Assembly: GCA_001768565.1 (NCBI GenBank)
Contig: MEOE01000018.1
Location: 1-64,000, forward strand
Source: Bacteroidetes bacterium GWF2_33_16
Lineage (GTDB): Bacteria > Bacteroidota > Bacteroidia > Bacteroidales > UBA12077
DNA length: 64,000 nt
Direction: 5' to 3'
The notes beneath the pieces are model-generated. The model was not told the DNA's origin. It ran no database searches and saw only the letters and a list, made by a program, of their open reading frames with translations. Positions 40,969-45,362 of this stretch are shown piece after piece. Both the position numbers and the translations under genes were made by a program. Within the stretch, counting starts at the first letter, position 1; each line of letters begins with the position of its first letter.

Positions 40969-42645
40969 CTAATTTGTAATCTCTGAATCCTTTTTCGAAA
41001 AACGGGCAATTAATTTTTTAATCATGGTAAAATAAGTATCGGAATTAAGAATAACAGAGTCTGTGGTAGCTTTGTATGTAAGGAAAATACCTAATGGCAT
41101 TAATATGAAGGATGAAATCCACATTCCTATATATGCTGGCATTACTCCTTCGCGTACAAATTTCTCTCCTGATATCGACAGGATATAATAGAAAATAAAC
41201 AGTAGTATTGACATTACAACTGGAGTGCCGAAACCCCCTTTTCGAACAATTGCACCAAGCGGAGCGCCAATAAAAAAGAAAACAAAACAAGCAAATGACA
41301 AGGAGAATTTCCGGTGTCTTTCAATTTCATGTCGTCGTATTCTATCTTGTTTATAGTTAAATGTTTTTTTCGAATTATCTACTGAGTTTTGCGCAGCACG
41401 GGCATATGTAAGTGCAAATTTTATTGCTTCGTTTTTATTTTGTATTGTTAGATTATGAAATGCCGTATCAACATAAAACTTATTTTCATTCGTTTGATTA
41501 CTCTCTGCTATTAAGAGAGAATCATTTATAGGTTTTTCGATAAAAGCTGTGTCGTAGCGTTTTTGTATCAAATCCTTTTTCAGATCTGTTTTGATTTTAG
41601 TTATTCTGTGTTTATTTCTTTTCTTATGTTCTAAAAGAGAGTCTCTTTCAGAAATTTCCGGTTTTCTTTCAGTTTCTATAATTGTAGTTGCTTCACCCTT
41701 TTTATTATAATCTATATCATTTAGTAACTGATTTTCTCTTTTAAAGTAGTTGTTCTGCTTTATTGTTATAGCAAAGTTCTTAATCAAATCGTTGTATTCA
41801 TTATTTAGCGAATCTTCGAAATAAATCAGTTGTTTTAAATTTAACATTTGAAAGTTATTTTTAAATAACTCTTCATCGGTTCGGCTAAAATCAAGTCCTG
41901 TAAGTTCGAAAATTACTACCTGTTTATCGAATATATTTCGTTGGAGAGGATGTTTCTTTTCTGTTTTTCGTCGATCTTTTCTAGGTTCGTCCACCTCTTC
42001 GTAAGAATAACCATTATATAATGTAAGAATAATGTTTGATTCATCTGCTGTCATTCTCATATAGCCAGAATCAGCAACAGTAACATATAAATTTTCTTTA
42101 TTATTCTTATGGTCATAAACCATTATATTTTGGAGTAGGTTTGTTTTATGGTTTTTCTTTGCAATTTTTATACTGTAACCTTCAATTCCATTGTAAAATA
42201 TACCTTCTTTAATTTGCAGTTCCGGTCGTTGATGTTTAACATCATAAATTAGAGCACCCGTTTTTAAATTTGTATATGGAATAACATGATTAGAATAAAA
42301 GAAAGCCGATATGCTTAAAATAATTATTAGATAAATAAGAGGTGCCATAAAACGTTGTAAAGAGATACCCGCAGATTTTATAGCTGTTAGCTCAAAATTC
42401 TCACCTAGGTTACCAAATGTCATAATAGACGAAAGTAATACTGCTAATGGAAGAGCCATTGGAACAAGCCTTGCAGAAGCATAAACTATAAGTTCTGCAA
42501 TAACCGTCCATTCCAATCCTTTTCCTGCTAAATCATCAATGTATTTCCATAGAAACTGCATTAACAGAATAAACAGCGAGACAAAAAAAGTCATGACCAA
42601 TGGTCCGAGATATGATTCTAGTATAAACTTATGTAAGCGCTTCAA
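40969..42645 (-). CDS. LptF/LptG family permease (YjgP/YjgQ)
   Basis: Inner-membrane part of a lipopolysaccharide export ABC system. Three N-terminal helices (about 14-120), a periplasmic beta-jellyroll region, and three C-terminal helices (about 450-545: FFIGAPLGAIVRKGGFGTPVVMS is diagnostic). At 558 aa it is far longer than E. coli LptF/G (about 360) because of a charged insertion of roughly 150 residues (ENQLLNDIDYNKKGE..., ERDSLLEHKKRNKHRI). The start is TTG, since the nearest upstream ATG is out of frame. Cotranscribed with two glycosyltransferase genes; the partner permease is not in the window. Confidence 0.88.
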   Translation of the reverse strand: MKRLHKFILESYLGPLVMTFFVSLFILLMQFLWKYIDDLAGKGLEWTVIAELIVYASARLVPMALPLAVLLSSIMTFGNLGENFELTAIKSAGISLQRFMAPLIYLIIILSISAFFYSNHVIPYTNLKTGALIYDVKHQRPELQIKEGIFYNGIEGYSIKIAKKNHKTNLLQNIMVYDHKNNKENLYVTVADSGYMRMTADESNIILTLYNGYSYEEVDEPRKDRRKTEKKHPLQRNIFDKQVVIFELTGLDFSRTDEELFKNNFQMLNLKQLIYFEDSLNNEYNDLIKNFAITIKQNNYFKRENQLLNDIDYNKKGEATTIIETERKPEISERDSLLEHKKRNKHRITKIKTDLKKDLIQKRYDTAFIEKPINDSLLIAESNQTNENKFYVDTAFHNLTIQNKNEAIKFALTYARAAQNSVDNSKKTFNYKQDRIRRHEIERHRKFSLSFACFVFFFIGAPLGAIVRKGGFGTPVVMSILLFIFYYILSISGEKFVREGVMPAYIGMWISSFILMPLGIFLTYKATTDSVILNSDTYFTMIKKLIARFSKKDSEITN

Positions 42646-42723
42646 TCGATTTCATATTTATTGTAAAACGAATACAAAAATAAGTTATTTTGTGAAAAGG
42701 ATTTTATGAAAAACAAAATTAGA

Positions 42724-43101
42724 TTAAAGACCTAAGGTTCTTTTTAGGTCGGCGATTTGAGAATTCCATAATTCAATGGTACTTTCTTTCTCGTCATCAT
42801 CTGCAAAATCAGTAATTACAAGAGCAACATCCCCGGTAAGTTCATCCTGATTAATTTTAAATTCGAAATAAGTATTTTCAATTTCATCATCAACCCATTT
42901 AAAACGAATACATTGGTTTTCTTTTTTAGAAACCATTTCGGCTTGCTCTTCGGTTCCTTCCCATCTAAAAGTAAAAATGTTACCTTGAATATTTATATCA
43001 TCTGCAAACCACTCTGATAATCCTCCTGGAGTTGATAATCTGGGAAATAATATTTTGGGAGAAGAATTAAGAGTATATTCTAGTTCGAATTTATTTTTCA
43101 T
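42724..43101 (-). CDS. START-like (SRPBCC) domain protein
   Basis: 125 aa helix-grip protein of the Bacteroidota START-like group: MKNKFELEYTLNSSPKILFPRLSTPGGLSEWFADD, FTFRWEGTEEQAEMVSK and CIRFKWVDD are the Aha1/START core, ending KESTIELWNSQIADLKRTL. It probably binds a hydrophobic ligand or protein partner; no specific role known. About 79 bp upstream of the LptF/G gene in the same direction. Its C-terminal helix pattern and length match the family. Confidence 0.85.
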   Translation of the reverse strand: MKNKFELEYTLNSSPKILFPRLSTPGGLSEWFADDINIQGNIFTFRWEGTEEQAEMVSKKENQCIRFKWVDDEIENTYFEFKINQDELTGDVALVITDFADDDEKESTIELWNSQIADLKRTLGL

Positions 43102-43194
43102 TTACAAGGTCTTTAATTTTCATCATATTATTGCAATATATAAAAAAAAAATAGATTTTTTCGCAATGTGTTTACAAGATAAACCAAAATAATT

Positions 43195-43202
43195 TATATT
43201 TG
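43195..43202 (+). promoter_or_regulatory. Bacteroidota-type -7 box (TATATTTG) for the tRNA-Met region
   Basis: TATATTTG followed by CAGCCCG; the AT-rich stretch 20-25 bp upstream has TTTACA as a possible -33. It would drive the 5'-half tRNA relic and the intact tRNA downstream. Confidence 0.55.
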
Positions 43203-43245
43203 CAGCCCGAAAGGACAATATGTAGTTCTTAAAAATAAATATTTT

Positions 43246-43298
43246 GGCGAGGTAGCTCAGATGCCTGCCTGCCGCAGGCAGGGTTAGAGCGCATGATT
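43246..43298 (+). pseudogene. tRNA-Met 5' half, interrupted in the D-loop and ended at the anticodon
   Basis: GGCGAGGTAGCTCAGATG and GTTAGAGCGCATGATT match the intact tRNA at 43340, but a 19-bp palindrome (43264-43282) is inserted in the D-loop. Similarity stops after ATT, exactly before the CAT anticodon; what follows (TGTATATATTT) is unrelated. It cannot fold into a normal tRNA on its own. Confidence 0.85.
43264..43282. repeat. GC-rich palindrome inserted in the D-loop of a tRNA copy
   Basis: CCTGCCTGC-C-GCAGGCAGG, perfect 9-bp arms around one base, in a DNA otherwise AT-rich. Removing it restores the tRNA D-loop exactly (CAGATG|GTTAGAGC), so it is a clean insertion. Confidence 0.85.
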
Positions 43299-43339
43299 TG
43301 TATATATTTTTAAAAAAGTTCTTTATTAATAGAAAGTAT

Positions 43340-43413
43340 GGCGAGGTAGCTCAGATGGTTAGAGCGCATGATTCATAATCATGAGGTCGCGAGTTCAATT
43401 CTCGCTCTCGCTA
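43340..43413 (+). tRNA. tRNA-Met (CAT anticodon)
   Basis: A 74-nt cloverleaf: acceptor stem 43340-43346 with 43406-43412 (GGCGAGG/TCTCGCT with terminal G-U pairs), D-stem GCTC/GAGC, anticodon stem CATGA/TCATG with loop TTCATAA and CAT at 43374-43376, T-stem GCGAG/CTCGC with TTCAATT loop, discriminator A. No CCA is encoded (a C follows). Most likely elongator tRNA-Met; a tRNA-Ile2 that needs lysidine has the same CAT anticodon and is not excluded, but the body resembles the Met type. Confidence 0.93.
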
Positions 43414-43427
43414 CATCAAAACAAACG

Positions 43428-43453
43428 ATCCCGGTGAACACCGGGATTTTTTA
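43428..43453 (+). terminator. Intrinsic terminator of tRNA-Met
   Basis: Perfect 8-bp stem ATCCCGGT/ACCGGGAT with loop GAAC and a T-rich tail, 15 bp after the tRNA. Confidence 0.9.
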
Positions 43454-43507
43454 TTTACCCAAATGTGAATTAAACCGAAAGGTTTAAATGAGCAGGTGGG
43501 TAAATAA
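43451..43507. repeat. Nested hairpins between tRNA relics, with a GAAA tetraloop
   Basis: Outer arms TTATTTACCC (43451-43460) and GGGTAAATAA (43498-43507) pair perfectly over 10 bp. Inside, TTAAACC-GAAA-GGTTTAA (43470-43487) forms a 7-bp stem closed by a GNRA tetraloop. A stable RNA-like structure with no coding content. Confidence 0.65.
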
Positions 43508-43554
43508 AAATTAATTGACAAGAATGTTTGTTTTGATGATAGGAATCCCCATGA

Positions 43555-43633
43555 GAATCACAATAACAAGCTGTTGTAATTCTCGCTCTCGCTACAAAGC
43601 AAAGCTCTTGTGCTGAAAGCACAGGTTTTTTTT
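43555..43633 (+). pseudogene. tRNA-Met 3'-end relic with terminator, first copy
   Basis: ATTCTCGCTCTCGCTAC (43579-43595) is identical to the 3' end of the intact tRNA. The T-arm before it is replaced by a hairpin (AGAATCACAA...TTGTAATTCT), and a terminator (CTTGTGCT/AGCACAGG plus T tract, 43607-43633) follows. From 43579 to about 43640 it is nearly the same sequence as at 44130-44190, so the two are direct repeats that flank the GIY-YIG gene. Confidence 0.75.
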
Positions 43634-43735
43634 GTTTTAAATATCCCAAGCTTGCTTGAGGATATAAAAAAATAGAAAGACCTATAAAAAGGCGAAGCCA
43701 GATGAGTTTTGCTTTGATAAGTGTTCTTTCATGCA

Positions 43736-43808
43736 AATCACAACAGCTTGCAGTTGTAATTATCGCTCTCTCTGCAAAAAGCGATCAGTTTTTATGACCG
43801 TTTTTTTG
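43736..43808 (+). pseudogene. tRNA-Met 3'-end relic, second more decayed copy
   Basis: AATTATCGCTCTCTCTGC (near 43758) is a mutated version of the tRNA 3' end, again behind a hairpin AATCACAAC...GTTGTAATT as in the first relic, and before a degenerate terminator-like CGATCAG...TGACCG plus T run. It lies just before the GIY-YIG start. Confidence 0.6.
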
Positions 43809-43823
43809 TTTTATATTTGATAT

Positions 43824-44111
43824 ATGTTTTACGTATATATTCTTTTTTCAGAAAAACTTTCGAAATTTTATATTGGTCAAACCAATAATTTAGAGGAAAG
43901 ACTTAAAAGGCATAATTCAGGTTACGAAATATTTACCTCAAAAGGTACGCCATGGAAACTACTATGGAAGGCAGATAAAGCTACAAGAACAGAAGCAATG
44001 GATTTAGAGAAAAAACTAAAAAACTTATCTCAGAAAAGACTACAGCAATTCATGCAAAAGTATAATCATGAGGTCGCGGGTCCTGACGAGGCAAGCCTGT
44101 CAGGATGCTGA
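43824..44111 (+). CDS. Solitary GIY-YIG endonuclease, C-terminus made of tRNA and palindrome sequence
   Basis: 95 aa. The GIY-YIG domain reads FYVYILFSEKLSKFYIGQTNNLEERLKRHNSG (conserved Tyr, Arg) and has the metal-binding Glu in EAMDLEKKLK. Up to about residue 79 it is a normal single-domain UPF0213-like nuclease. The last codons, from YNHEVAG on, are the anticodon arm and variable region of a tRNA-Met relic, then a 25-bp hairpin unit, ending in SLSGC at a TGA inside the second hairpin. A TATATTTG box sits 4 bp before the ATG. Nothing shows its target; its place inside tRNA copies suggests it cuts tRNA gene DNA. Confidence 0.88.
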   Translation: MFYVYILFSEKLSKFYIGQTNNLEERLKRHNSGYEIFTSKGTPWKLLWKADKATRTEAMDLEKKLKNLSQKRLQQFMQKYNHEVAGPDEASLSGC

Positions 44112-44145
44112 CCGAAGCGTCAGCATTCAATTCTCGCTCTCGCTA
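44062..44145 (+). pseudogene. tRNA-Met 3' half starting in the anticodon, interrupted in the T-arm
   Basis: ATAATCATGAGGTCGCG (from the second base of CAT onward) and TTCAATTCTCGCTCTCGCTA match the intact tRNA, with a 45-bp insertion (44081-44125) at the T-stem/T-loop border. It is the complement of the 5' half at 43246: that one stops before the anticodon and this one starts in it. The first 50 bases are also the end of the GIY-YIG gene. Confidence 0.85.
44081..44125. repeat. Double-hairpin insertion in the T-arm of a tRNA copy
   Basis: Two adjoining palindromes: TCCTGAC...GTCAGGA (44081-44105, with inner AGGC/GCCT) and TGCTGAC...GTCAGCA (44106-44125). GC-rich, with no similarity to tRNA. 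Like the D-loop palindrome it sits in a loop or loop border. Confidence 0.8.
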
Positions 44146-44151
44146 CAAAGT

Positions 44152-44185
44152 AAAACCCTTGTGTTAAAAGCACAAGGGTTTTTTG
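44152..44185 (+). terminator. Terminator after the 3' half tRNA relic
   Basis: Perfect 12-bp stem AAAACCCTTGTG/CACAAGGGTTTT followed by TTTG. Close relative of the terminator at 43607-43633. Confidence 0.85.
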
Positions 44186-44215
44186 TTTAGGGATTCTGCT
44201 TTTAGTGCAAAAACC

Positions 44216-44572
44216 TTATTCCGTTTTAAATTTTAGAAAATCGCCATCAATAATTACTAATTTAACTCCGTTTTCGGTGCTTGAGCGGTGAGAGCTTAAT
44301 TCATCTGAAACCACATAGGTCATTCCTTTGGTGAGAATAGATTTCGAACCATCTTTAAGCTCGCTCACGAACTCGCCTTCTAAACAATGCACAATATGGC
44401 CTTTTTCGCACCAATGATCTGCTAAATAGCCTTTTGAATATTCAACTATTCGAATTCGTAAACCGGGTAATTGAATGGTTTGCCAGAATGCAACACCTGT
44501 TACTCCTTTATGTTCTGTTTTTGGAACTATTGTCCAATCGATAGCTTGGAACGGAATATTTAAGTTATTCAT
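44216..44572 (-). CDS. DHCW-motif cupin-fold protein
   Basis: 118-aa cupin. The family is named for a DHCW motif; here the corresponding part reads YLADHWCEKGHIVHCLEGEF (DHWC order), with His and Glu that could bind a metal. The second half has LTKGMTYVVSDELSSHRSSTENG. Its function is unknown. It is 14 bp from the end of the NYN/LOTUS gene upstream on the same strand, so the two may be cotranscribed. Confidence 0.85.
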   Translation of the reverse strand: MNNLNIPFQAIDWTIVPKTEHKGVTGVAFWQTIQLPGLRIRIVEYSKGYLADHWCEKGHIVHCLEGEFVSELKDGSKSILTKGMTYVVSDELSSHRSSTENGVKLVIIDGDFLKFKTE

Positions 44573-44585
44573 AATTTGGGTATCG

Positions 44586-45362
44586 TTATTTTTTAATTTT
44601 TACATAAATATGTTTAATATGTGTTTTTTCTACTTCTCGTTCATCAATAATAAAATGCTTGTTTAATGATTTTATAAGTGGAGTTAATTTCGGGAAACCA
44701 TAATTTCGCGGATCGAAATCGGGTCTCTTTTTGATTATTAATGCTCCAAGTTCAGCAAGAAATGCCCATCCGGTTTCATCTGCGAGGTCTTCAACTGATG
44801 ATTTTAACAAATGTATAAATTTGCCATCGATCGAATCTATTTTTGATGTTAAGGTAGGTTTGGATGTTGTTTTTGTTGATTTCGTAACATCATCGGCAGC
44901 AATTATCTCAATATATATAAACTTATCGCATGCAACAATAAAAGGATTCGGTGTTTTCTTTTCGCCAATACCAATTACCAGCATTCCTGATTCGCGCAAT
45001 CGTACTGCTAAACGAGTAAAATCACTGTCGCTTGATACAAGGCAAAATCCATCAACTTTTTCGCTATGTAAAATATCCATTGCATCTATTATCATTGCCG
45101 AATCGGTAGCGTTTTTGCCTGTAGTATAGCTGTATTGTTGTATTGGAGTTATAGCATGCTCAAGTAAAGCTGGTTTCCACCCCGAAACAGTTGGCTTTGT
45201 CCAATCACCATATATTCTTTTAATAGTTGGAAGTCCTAGTTTTGCTATTTCATCTAACATTCCTTTAATATTTGAATAGGGAATATTATCGGCGTCGATC
45301 AGAACTGCCAGTTTTAAATCATTTCTTTCTCTCATAATTGAATTTTTTATAATAACTGACAT
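44586..45362 (-). CDS. NYN-domain protein with C-terminal LOTUS/OST-HTH domain (LabA/MARF1-like)
   Basis: 258 aa. The NYN domain (about 15-155) is a PIN-like nuclease fold with acidic residues in AVLIDADNIP, GKNATDSAMIIDAMDIL and CLVSSDSDFTRLAVRLRESG, suited to binding metal and cutting RNA. The C-terminal domain (about 180-250: FIHLLKSSVEDLADETGWAFLAELGALI and YGFPKLTPLIKSL) is the OST-HTH/LOTUS fold thought to bind RNA. A second ATG at 45335 (MRERNDLKLA) is an equally good start. Target RNA unknown. The bacterial members are widespread and mostly uncharacterised. Confidence 0.9.
   Translation of the reverse strand: MSVIIKNSIMRERNDLKLAVLIDADNIPYSNIKGMLDEIAKLGLPTIKRIYGDWTKPTVSGWKPALLEHAITPIQQYSYTTGKNATDSAMIIDAMDILHSEKVDGFCLVSSDSDFTRLAVRLRESGMLVIGIGEKKTPNPFIVACDKFIYIEIIAADDVTKSTKTTSKPTLTSKIDSIDGKFIHLLKSSVEDLADETGWAFLAELGALIIKKRPDFDPRNYGFPKLTPLIKSLNKHFIIDEREVEKTHIKHIYVKIKK

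Follow-up and report, generated by a model that had tools for sequence, protein, structure and literature searches.

Small GIY-YIG nuclease genes between complete and partial tRNA copies: a probable homing-type cassette of Bacteroidota

The tRNA-Met locus of the window

The stretch analysed here (hereafter the window) comprises the first 64,000 nucleotides of contig MEOE01000018.1 from Bacteroidetes bacterium GWF2_33_16, a member of the Bacteroidales, and contains a tRNA-Met locus in which a small gene of the GIY-YIG nuclease superfamily lies amongst complete and broken copies of the tRNA gene. The pieces, checked by sequence and repeat searches, ARAGORN, and letter-by-letter comparison, are listed below in window coordinates.

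43246–43298, plus strand: 5' half of a tRNA-Met (positions 1–34), ending directly before the CAT anticodon, D-loop interrupted
43264–43282, no strand: 19-nt hairpin insert, CCTGCCTGCCGCAGGCAGG, within the D-loop of the 5' half
43340–43414, plus strand: intact tRNA-Met(CAT) (ARAGORN; Rfam RF00005, 70.4 bits)
43428–43452, plus strand: terminator-like hairpin and T run downstream of the intact tRNA-Met
43578–43595, plus strand: decayed tRNA-Met 3' end 1 (positions 58–75), then a terminator-like hairpin
43758–43773, plus strand: decayed tRNA-Met 3' end 2 (positions 58–73, 87.5% identity)
43824–44111, plus strand: GIY-YIG nuclease open reading frame (ORF), 95 amino acids (PF01541, E 5e-17)
44062–44146, plus strand: tRNA-Met 3' half (positions 36–75), starting on the second base of CAT
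44082–44125, no strand: double hairpin of 44 nt interrupting the 3' half
44152–44186, plus strand: terminator-like hairpin after the 3' half, resembling the hairpin after decayed 3' end 1

As the first-pass annotation had described, the 5' half stops before CAT and the 3' half resumes from its second base (44062), and between the halves lie the intact tRNA, the two decayed 3' ends, and the GIY-YIG gene, which were recovered with ARAGORN, Rfam, PF01541, and the repeat search. The direct repeats of tRNA 3' end and terminator that it placed on either side of the nuclease gene are also present (43578–43637 and 44129–44188, 87% identical). Both tRNA halves are broken by hairpin inserts. The 3' half begins with positions 36–55, is interrupted beside the T-loop by an insert that follows position 55, and continues at 44126–44146. 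The palindrome type of the D-loop insert has seven forward sites in the 4.33-Mb genome, of which the insert is one, and the pattern of the second hairpin of the 44-nt insert matches nowhere else in the genome. In a genome search, the sole other match of the intact tRNA-Met was a 22-nt piece of the 3' half; the label tRNA-Met is that of ARAGORN, and the same DNA anticodon would also fit a tRNA-Ile. The nuclease ORF overlaps the 3' half and the C-terminus (...KYNHEVAGPDEASLSGC) is therefore read from tRNA sequence, with the last residues encoded by the 3' half and its hairpin insert. The arrangement is not a product of chance, since it recurs at many other loci.

The match of the nuclease to PF01541 lies above the family cut-off and ten alignment columns, including Y5, Y16, G18, R26, H30, and E62, are invariant in 18 of 18 nucleases. 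Conserved residues of the Y5, Y16, R26, H30, and E62 type are presumably those of the active site. The predicted fold is confident (predicted local distance difference test, pLDDT, 92.2) and has as its neighbours UPF0213 (1zg2), SLX1, and then I-TevI; the nearest solved relatives by sequence are likewise UPF0213 and SLX1. Ratios of non-synonymous to synonymous substitution (dN/dS, NG86) of about 0.05–0.33, obtained for 13 of 15 nuclease pairs where dS was computable, indicate that the nuclease proteins evolve under purifying selection.

Small GIY-YIG genes beside tRNA genes of the Bacteroidota

The window locus is one of three places at tRNAs amongst the ten PF01541 matches of its own genome. 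A second (L003) consists of an intact tRNA-Val(TAC), a terminator, a nuclease gene, a hairpin-filled tRNA fragment, a copy of the terminator, and a truncated nuclease copy, and the third (L004), before tRNA-Arg(TCG), has a 5' fragment with a D-loop hairpin, a nuclease gene, and the intact tRNA. The survey of such genes covered the Bacteroidota in three sets. Set A holds the small GIY-YIG genes of the own genome and 15 relatives (51 regions, 50 of them with loci matched by the A1 model), excluding 28 of the 77 hits in relatives (ORFs of at least 293 amino acids) and three large ones in the own genome. Set B stems from a search of 296 phylum genomes at least 90% complete, 197 of which had a match, and comprises 102 loci after eight duplicates were dropped; these are the top-ranked matches to a model of 18 sequences, all linked to a tRNA or transfer-messenger RNA (tmRNA), and because the model was built solely from linked sequences, set B describes that lineage and not GIY-YIG genes at large. 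Set C comprises 79 loci of named records, found with an alignment of the tRNA-Val type (the best 80 of 478 matches); six of the 79 have nuclease DNA identical to a locus of set A or B, so that the sets overlap slightly. The phylum assigned to the set C loci is that given by their record titles.

A tRNA or tmRNA gene lies within 1 kb of 25 of the 50 loci of set A and of 94 of the 102 loci of set B, so that random placement of GIY-YIG genes relative to tRNAs, which the first-pass annotation had named as grounds for abandoning its idea, is not what is found. All of these tRNAs are on the same strand as the nuclease gene (25/25 and 94/94; 119/119 together) and the median gap in set B is 47 bp. The background frequency of such linkage in the set A regions is 3.1% (165 of 5309 positions), and amongst large GIY-YIG loci (14 of 31 hits examined) none had a tRNA in the 1.5-kb flanks. 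The targets in set B carry 27 labels, 26 anticodons and tmRNA; three of its eight loci lacking a tRNA (L135, L145, and L146) are near the end of the analysed stretch. In set C, a standard tRNA lies on the same strand no more than 1 kb upstream of the nuclease gene at 61 of 79 loci. Eight others show just a tRNA-like call downstream, in most cases with an unusual anticodon, which is probably the fragment itself. Ten have no tRNA; in nine of these the gene is within roughly 400 bp of where the stretch ends, L352 being the exception.

Two small GIY-YIG genes occur at tmRNA instead of tRNA (L108:1028–1710 in G012 and L200 in G305), and the first of these stretches carries the palindrome CCTGCCGGCAGGCAGG. 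Two contigs filed under Bifidobacterium breve and Streptomyces griseus bins (L320 and L321) carry Val-type cassettes of Bacteroidota and are probably misnamed or mixed bins. Four loci were matched on viral contigs, in two cases about 100 bp or less from the stretch end; one viral contig (L358) has a distant relative of the nuclease with a tRNA-Ala(GGC) call next to it in opposite orientation.

The linked loci of sets A and B take two layouts. In type 1 (96 loci) the intact tRNA is upstream, followed by the nuclease gene and a 3' fragment, and in type 2 (23 loci) a 5' fragment precedes the nuclease gene and the intact tRNA; all 23 type-2 loci have a tRNA above the Rfam gathering score, with L199 ambiguous, its match being upstream of the main nuclease. 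Across the nuclease gene from the intact tRNA, a partial copy of that tRNA, accepted when its score exceeded all 200 shuffles with z over 4, is present at 109 of the 118 loci with enough flank and at 58 of 58 testable loci of set C. The same test flags eight of 81 control flanks of tRNAs with no GIY-YIG gene within 1.5 kb, and three of the eight lie at the orthologous tRNA-Met site of the genus of the window, where they look like footprints. The split at the anticodon, emphasized by the first-pass annotation, is real at the window locus and at some others, including ten of 23 type-2 fragments that end in the anticodon loop; as a universal split point it is rejected, with 64 of 85 type-1 fragments beginning earlier, in the acceptor or D arm. 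The best match of a fragment is its own intact tRNA in 79 of 99 cases (12 ties, eight matching another tRNA best), and a foreign source for the 3' end, of the sort described for mobile ORFs of mitochondria (see below), was not seen amongst these 99. A terminator-like hairpin with a T run lies between tRNA and nuclease gene at 56 of 90 type-1 loci. One GIY-YIG clade (L090, L108, L109, and L111; 98% support) sits behind tRNA-Ala, tRNA-Ser(GCT), or tmRNA.

Cassettes are amplified in tandem in single-contig genomes, with five identical or near-identical 315-bp units behind a tRNA-Asp (L157), five 450-bp units and a truncated sixth behind a tRNA-Leu (L159), and three 323-bp units before a tRNA-Ser (L162). 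An assembly artefact is unlikely, as arrays and cassettes recur in such genomes and in many assemblies. A further stretch (L098:4331–6072 in G024) has eight tRNA-Val-like ARAGORN calls interleaved with two nuclease genes, and six of the eight have odd or undetermined anticodons, a hairpin replacing the anticodon arm.

Filled and empty sites, targets, and hairpins

Orthologous sites within the genus differ by the presence of the cassette. Of 16 fetched relatives, 15 have the tRNA-Met gene next to the START2 and LptF/G genes and, on contigs that extend far enough, a glycosyltransferase gene; only G038, a member of another family, departs from this. The site is filled in seven genomes of the genus, including that of the window (G000, G008, G010, G011 with two copies, G015, G017, and G018), and empty in nine (G001, G003, G005, G006, G012, G013, G014, G016, and G019), of which G003 and G014 are weak evidence because their contigs end less than 400 bp from the tRNA; four genomes (G002, G004, G007, and G009) were not judged. 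A locus identical in all relatives, the other outcome that the first-pass annotation had held to be fatal to its proposal, is thus not observed, and the alignment of empty and filled loci that it had called for identifies what differs. A downstream gene common to G013 (empty), G017, and G008 (both filled) has its start codon 159, 609, and 700 bp after the tRNA, respectively, and the extra stretch in the latter two contains a nuclease gene, a fragment, and a terminator. At a tRNA-Val site defined by a shared upstream gene, G000, G005, and G009 carry a nuclease gene and G010 a truncated one, and no nuclease was found in the analysed flank of G003, G006, and G007, the contigs of G003 and G006 ending within 180 bp.

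On a tree of 145 nucleases (78 columns, with 70 of 141 inner branches unresolved), tRNA-type labels require 56 changes compared to 107.9 for shuffled labels, with none of 200 shuffles as low, a clustering to which near-copies contribute and which is absent or weak for Ser(TGA), Pro(CGG), and Leu(CAA) individually. Supported groups extend across host families, four for Val (with some Arg(TCT) inside), five for Leu, four for Ser(GGA), two for Arg, and two for one Asp pair, and amongst linked rows tRNA type takes 48 changes and host family 62. Based on these patterns, a nuclease clade tends to stay with one tRNA type even when its hosts span several families. In the tree, the window nuclease falls with two tRNA-Gly(TCC) nucleases, to which it is 63–65% identical (31% to L086), and one tRNA-Ser(TGA) nuclease (99% in the Shimodaira–Hasegawa-like approximate likelihood ratio test, SH-aLRT) and apart from three other tRNA-Met nucleases of the genus (98%), three more being outside the tree. 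As the tRNA-Met nucleases fall in separate groups, two lineages seem to have reached tRNA-Met, and the window nuclease may derive from the tRNA-Gly(TCC) lineage with a changed target.

Clean inserts of at least 10 nt number 83 and occur in 62 of 108 fragments. By a position rule 58 of the 83 lie in loops, compared to 40.2 expected (binomial, 6e-5), and 25 in stems. In a folding test 50 of the 83 beat 95% of shuffles (37 at P ≤ 0.01), and the other 33 therefore cannot be called hairpins on this test; a simple stem test was weak (38/83 at P ≤ 0.05). Elsewhere in the genus, six further tRNA-Met loci are filled, and in all of them (6/6, as judged by eye) the palindrome TCCCGAT..ATCGGGA replaces the anticodon arm of the 3' fragment. 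Palindromes of this type occur at 19 places in the own genome, one of them in a tRNA-Val fragment, with none for the reversed-pattern control, and the CCTGCCTGCC type has seven forward matches there (control, 0), two of them within cassette tRNA fragments.

A separate clade of small GIY-YIG genes (12 rows, 99% SH-aLRT) has no tRNA within 1 kb and includes L122 (C2:8202–8429 of the own genome), L077, L087, L088, L093, L095, and L104. Several of its loci sit amongst dispersed hairpin repeats such as GTCATTCCGGCGAATGCCGGAATC. Clade and repeats are a possible nuclease–repeat pair that calls to mind repetitive extragenic palindromic (REP) sequences.

Explanations and related systems

The loci probably represent a minimal, intron-less homing-type cassette of Bacteroidota tRNA and tmRNA genes that leaves one complete tRNA in place. 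The cassette spans about 300–450 bp and consists of a GIY-YIG gene of about 80–120 codons, a partial tRNA gene, and in many cases a terminator. The nuclease would cut a cassette-free tRNA gene, in or beside the tRNA, and repair from a cassette-bearing copy would then add the nuclease gene and the duplicated part of the tRNA, with a complete tRNA remaining; this outcome is seen at nearly all linked loci, and it is from the outcome that we infer the route. The surplus 3' part (type 1) or 5' part (type 2) would be broken, often by the loop hairpins observed in the fragments, and a broken fragment may escape processing, re-cutting, or loss by recombination. Units would further amplify in tandem, decay, and be re-invaded, which could produce the layered fragments of the window; the arrays and remnants are present in the genomes and the order of events is a reconstruction. 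Nuclease clades would occasionally switch their tRNA target. Horizontal spread is likewise a proposed part of this account. The proposal of the first-pass annotation, a mobile unit that uses tRNA genes as landing sites and preserves an intact tRNA, gains support from these comparisons of sequences, with cutting and movement as its conjectural part.

Several observations weigh against this explanation. Half of the small GIY-YIG loci of set A (25/50), mostly from other clades, have no tRNA link, nine of the 118 linked loci lack a partial copy (the clade of L090, L108, L109, and L111, and the unexplained L117, L128, L183, L202, and L205), and 46 of 108 fragments lack a clean insert. Fragment boundaries vary and there is therefore no single insertion site, and the best match of fragments to their own tRNA is more readily explained by local duplication or gene conversion than by a gene end of foreign origin. 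The intact tRNA in a filled allele should keep any target that is wholly internal to it, which leaves the avoidance of self-cutting unexplained. The 80-residue model offers little beyond the catalytic fold, which is as near to the structure-specific SLX1 as to homing enzymes. The window protein had no tblastn match in a phage collection at E 1e-3 (no SegB profile search was made), and with this and only the four viral-contig loci no carrier is known. Cleavage and movement are themselves deduced from the arrangements.

The match of fragments to their own tRNA, the varying boundaries, the seemingly remaining target, and the SLX1-like fold are the reasons for keeping structure-guided amplification as the main rival, though we consider it unlikely. 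An SLX1-like nuclease would nick the hairpins or cruciforms into which tRNA genes and palindromes fold, and repair would duplicate a tRNA segment and the nuclease gene, in the manner of SegB, leave hairpins at the cut loops, and spread the unit mostly locally and rarely between tRNA loci. The relationship to UPF0213 and SLX1, nearest by sequence and both ahead of I-TevI by fold, the preference of inserts for loops (58/83 against 40.2), the folding of 50 of 83 inserts, the tandem arrays, and the tRNA-free clade amongst dispersed hairpins all agree with such a process, but nuclease clades that follow tRNA type across host families ask for sequence specificity and the clean presence or absence at orthologous sites fits insertion. 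About as unlikely is the idea that the hairpin-filled fragment is the working half of a two-part mobile unit with the nuclease, in which the hairpin-filled own copy would be resistant, the bare cloverleaf of uninvaded tRNA genes would be the target, and the dispersed hairpins would be products or non-autonomous relatives of the same enzymes; if true, bacteria would harbour a class of selfish DNA that targets hairpins and takes in many tRNA types.

A stable housekeeping gene that lies beside tRNAs by chance, with fragments as ordinary debris of tRNA duplication, would account for the purifying selection on the protein, and a same-strand position close behind a tRNA could let it borrow the promoter; it is highly improbable given a site filled in seven and empty in nine members of one genus, a fragment test that flags just 8/81 control flanks, and the 27 different labels in set B. 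GIY-YIG enzymes include intron endonucleases. The type is represented by I-TevI (PMC2988022) and integrating elements leave tRNA fragments (PMC9897764), yet we give the least credence of all to a tRNA group I intron with its endonuclease or to a remnant of a prophage or integrative element at a tRNA attachment site. The fragments can be of the 3' or the 5' part, the array in the window encloses an intact tRNA, and the 315-bp units of L157, read by eye, hold only the nuclease ORF, tRNA fragment, and terminator. The intron was rejected, with no intron family matched in window positions 42600–45000 at E up to 1 and none at gathering score in 32 cassette loci, and so was an integrase-type attachment site, based on the lack of an integrase in the 315-bp units as read by eye, no integrase search having been run over all loci.

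Amongst described systems, to judge from the sections of the cited papers drawn on here, SegB and the intron-less homing of T4 are the nearest in action and the mitochondrial mobile ORFs (mORFs) the nearest in architecture. SegB of the T4 and T6 phages is a free-standing GIY-YIG gene by tRNA genes that amplifies a segment with tRNA and nuclease gene in tandem (PMC13096335), and terminators or regulatory hairpins accompany some endonuclease genes of T4 (PMC13096335, PMC2988022). The cassettes share with these the co-localisation of GIY-YIG gene and tRNA within 1 kb and the tandem amplification (PMC13096335, PMC2988022), and differ in their place on bacterial chromosomes, a nearly bare catalytic domain, the far-side partial copy of the same tRNA, the inserted hairpins, and the tendency of clades towards one tRNA type. 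The mORFs of Glomus (atp6, atp9, cox2, and nad3) and Allomyces (atp6) carry a gene end (PMC3630166); as in the cassettes, an endonuclease ORF sits in a gene whose complete 3' part is kept, with a surplus 3' part behind the ORF, and the enzyme in the Glomus atp9 case is of the GIY-YIG type (PMC3630166). In these organelle protein genes the carried end is thought to be foreign and the remnant native (PMC3630166), whereas the targets in the Bacteroidota are tRNA and tmRNA genes, the fragment resembles its own tRNA, and the mirror-image 5' layout occurs too. In the accounts of SegB and the mORFs, as far as they are used here, neither unites a location on a bacterial chromosome with tRNA fragments that occur on both sides and are filled with hairpins.

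Short single or double hairpin elements, dispersed and inserted in genes, are described from fungal and sponge mitochondrial DNA (PMC2800124). The inserts here are similar in form and differ in lying in tRNA fragments beside nuclease genes, with enrichment in loops. The attachment sites of integrating elements likewise have a partial and a complete tRNA flanking the insert (PMC9897764), but the insert is about 0.3 kb here, compared to about 9–23 kb in archaeal cases (PMC9897764), and the units read contain no integrase.

Amongst titles and abstract openings of the open-access literature (subscription journals being outside this scope), the arrangement was not found described for bacteria, and the cassettes look like minimal selfish DNA of a class that has drawn little notice. 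They would explain odd annotations, including small GIY-YIG proteins with tRNA-encoded C-termini, spurious tRNAs with odd anticodons, and tRNA fragments. They would offer systems in culture, for example the Val-type relatives in Flavobacterium terrae DSM 18829 and Echinicola shivajiensis AK12, in which to study how a specific gene is found by an almost bare GIY-YIG catalytic domain, by what means an element keeps the host gene whole, and how hairpins arise in tRNA loops. With one short gene and a phylum-wide distribution, they would be very small, autonomous-looking mobile elements that reside in essential genes without killing the host.

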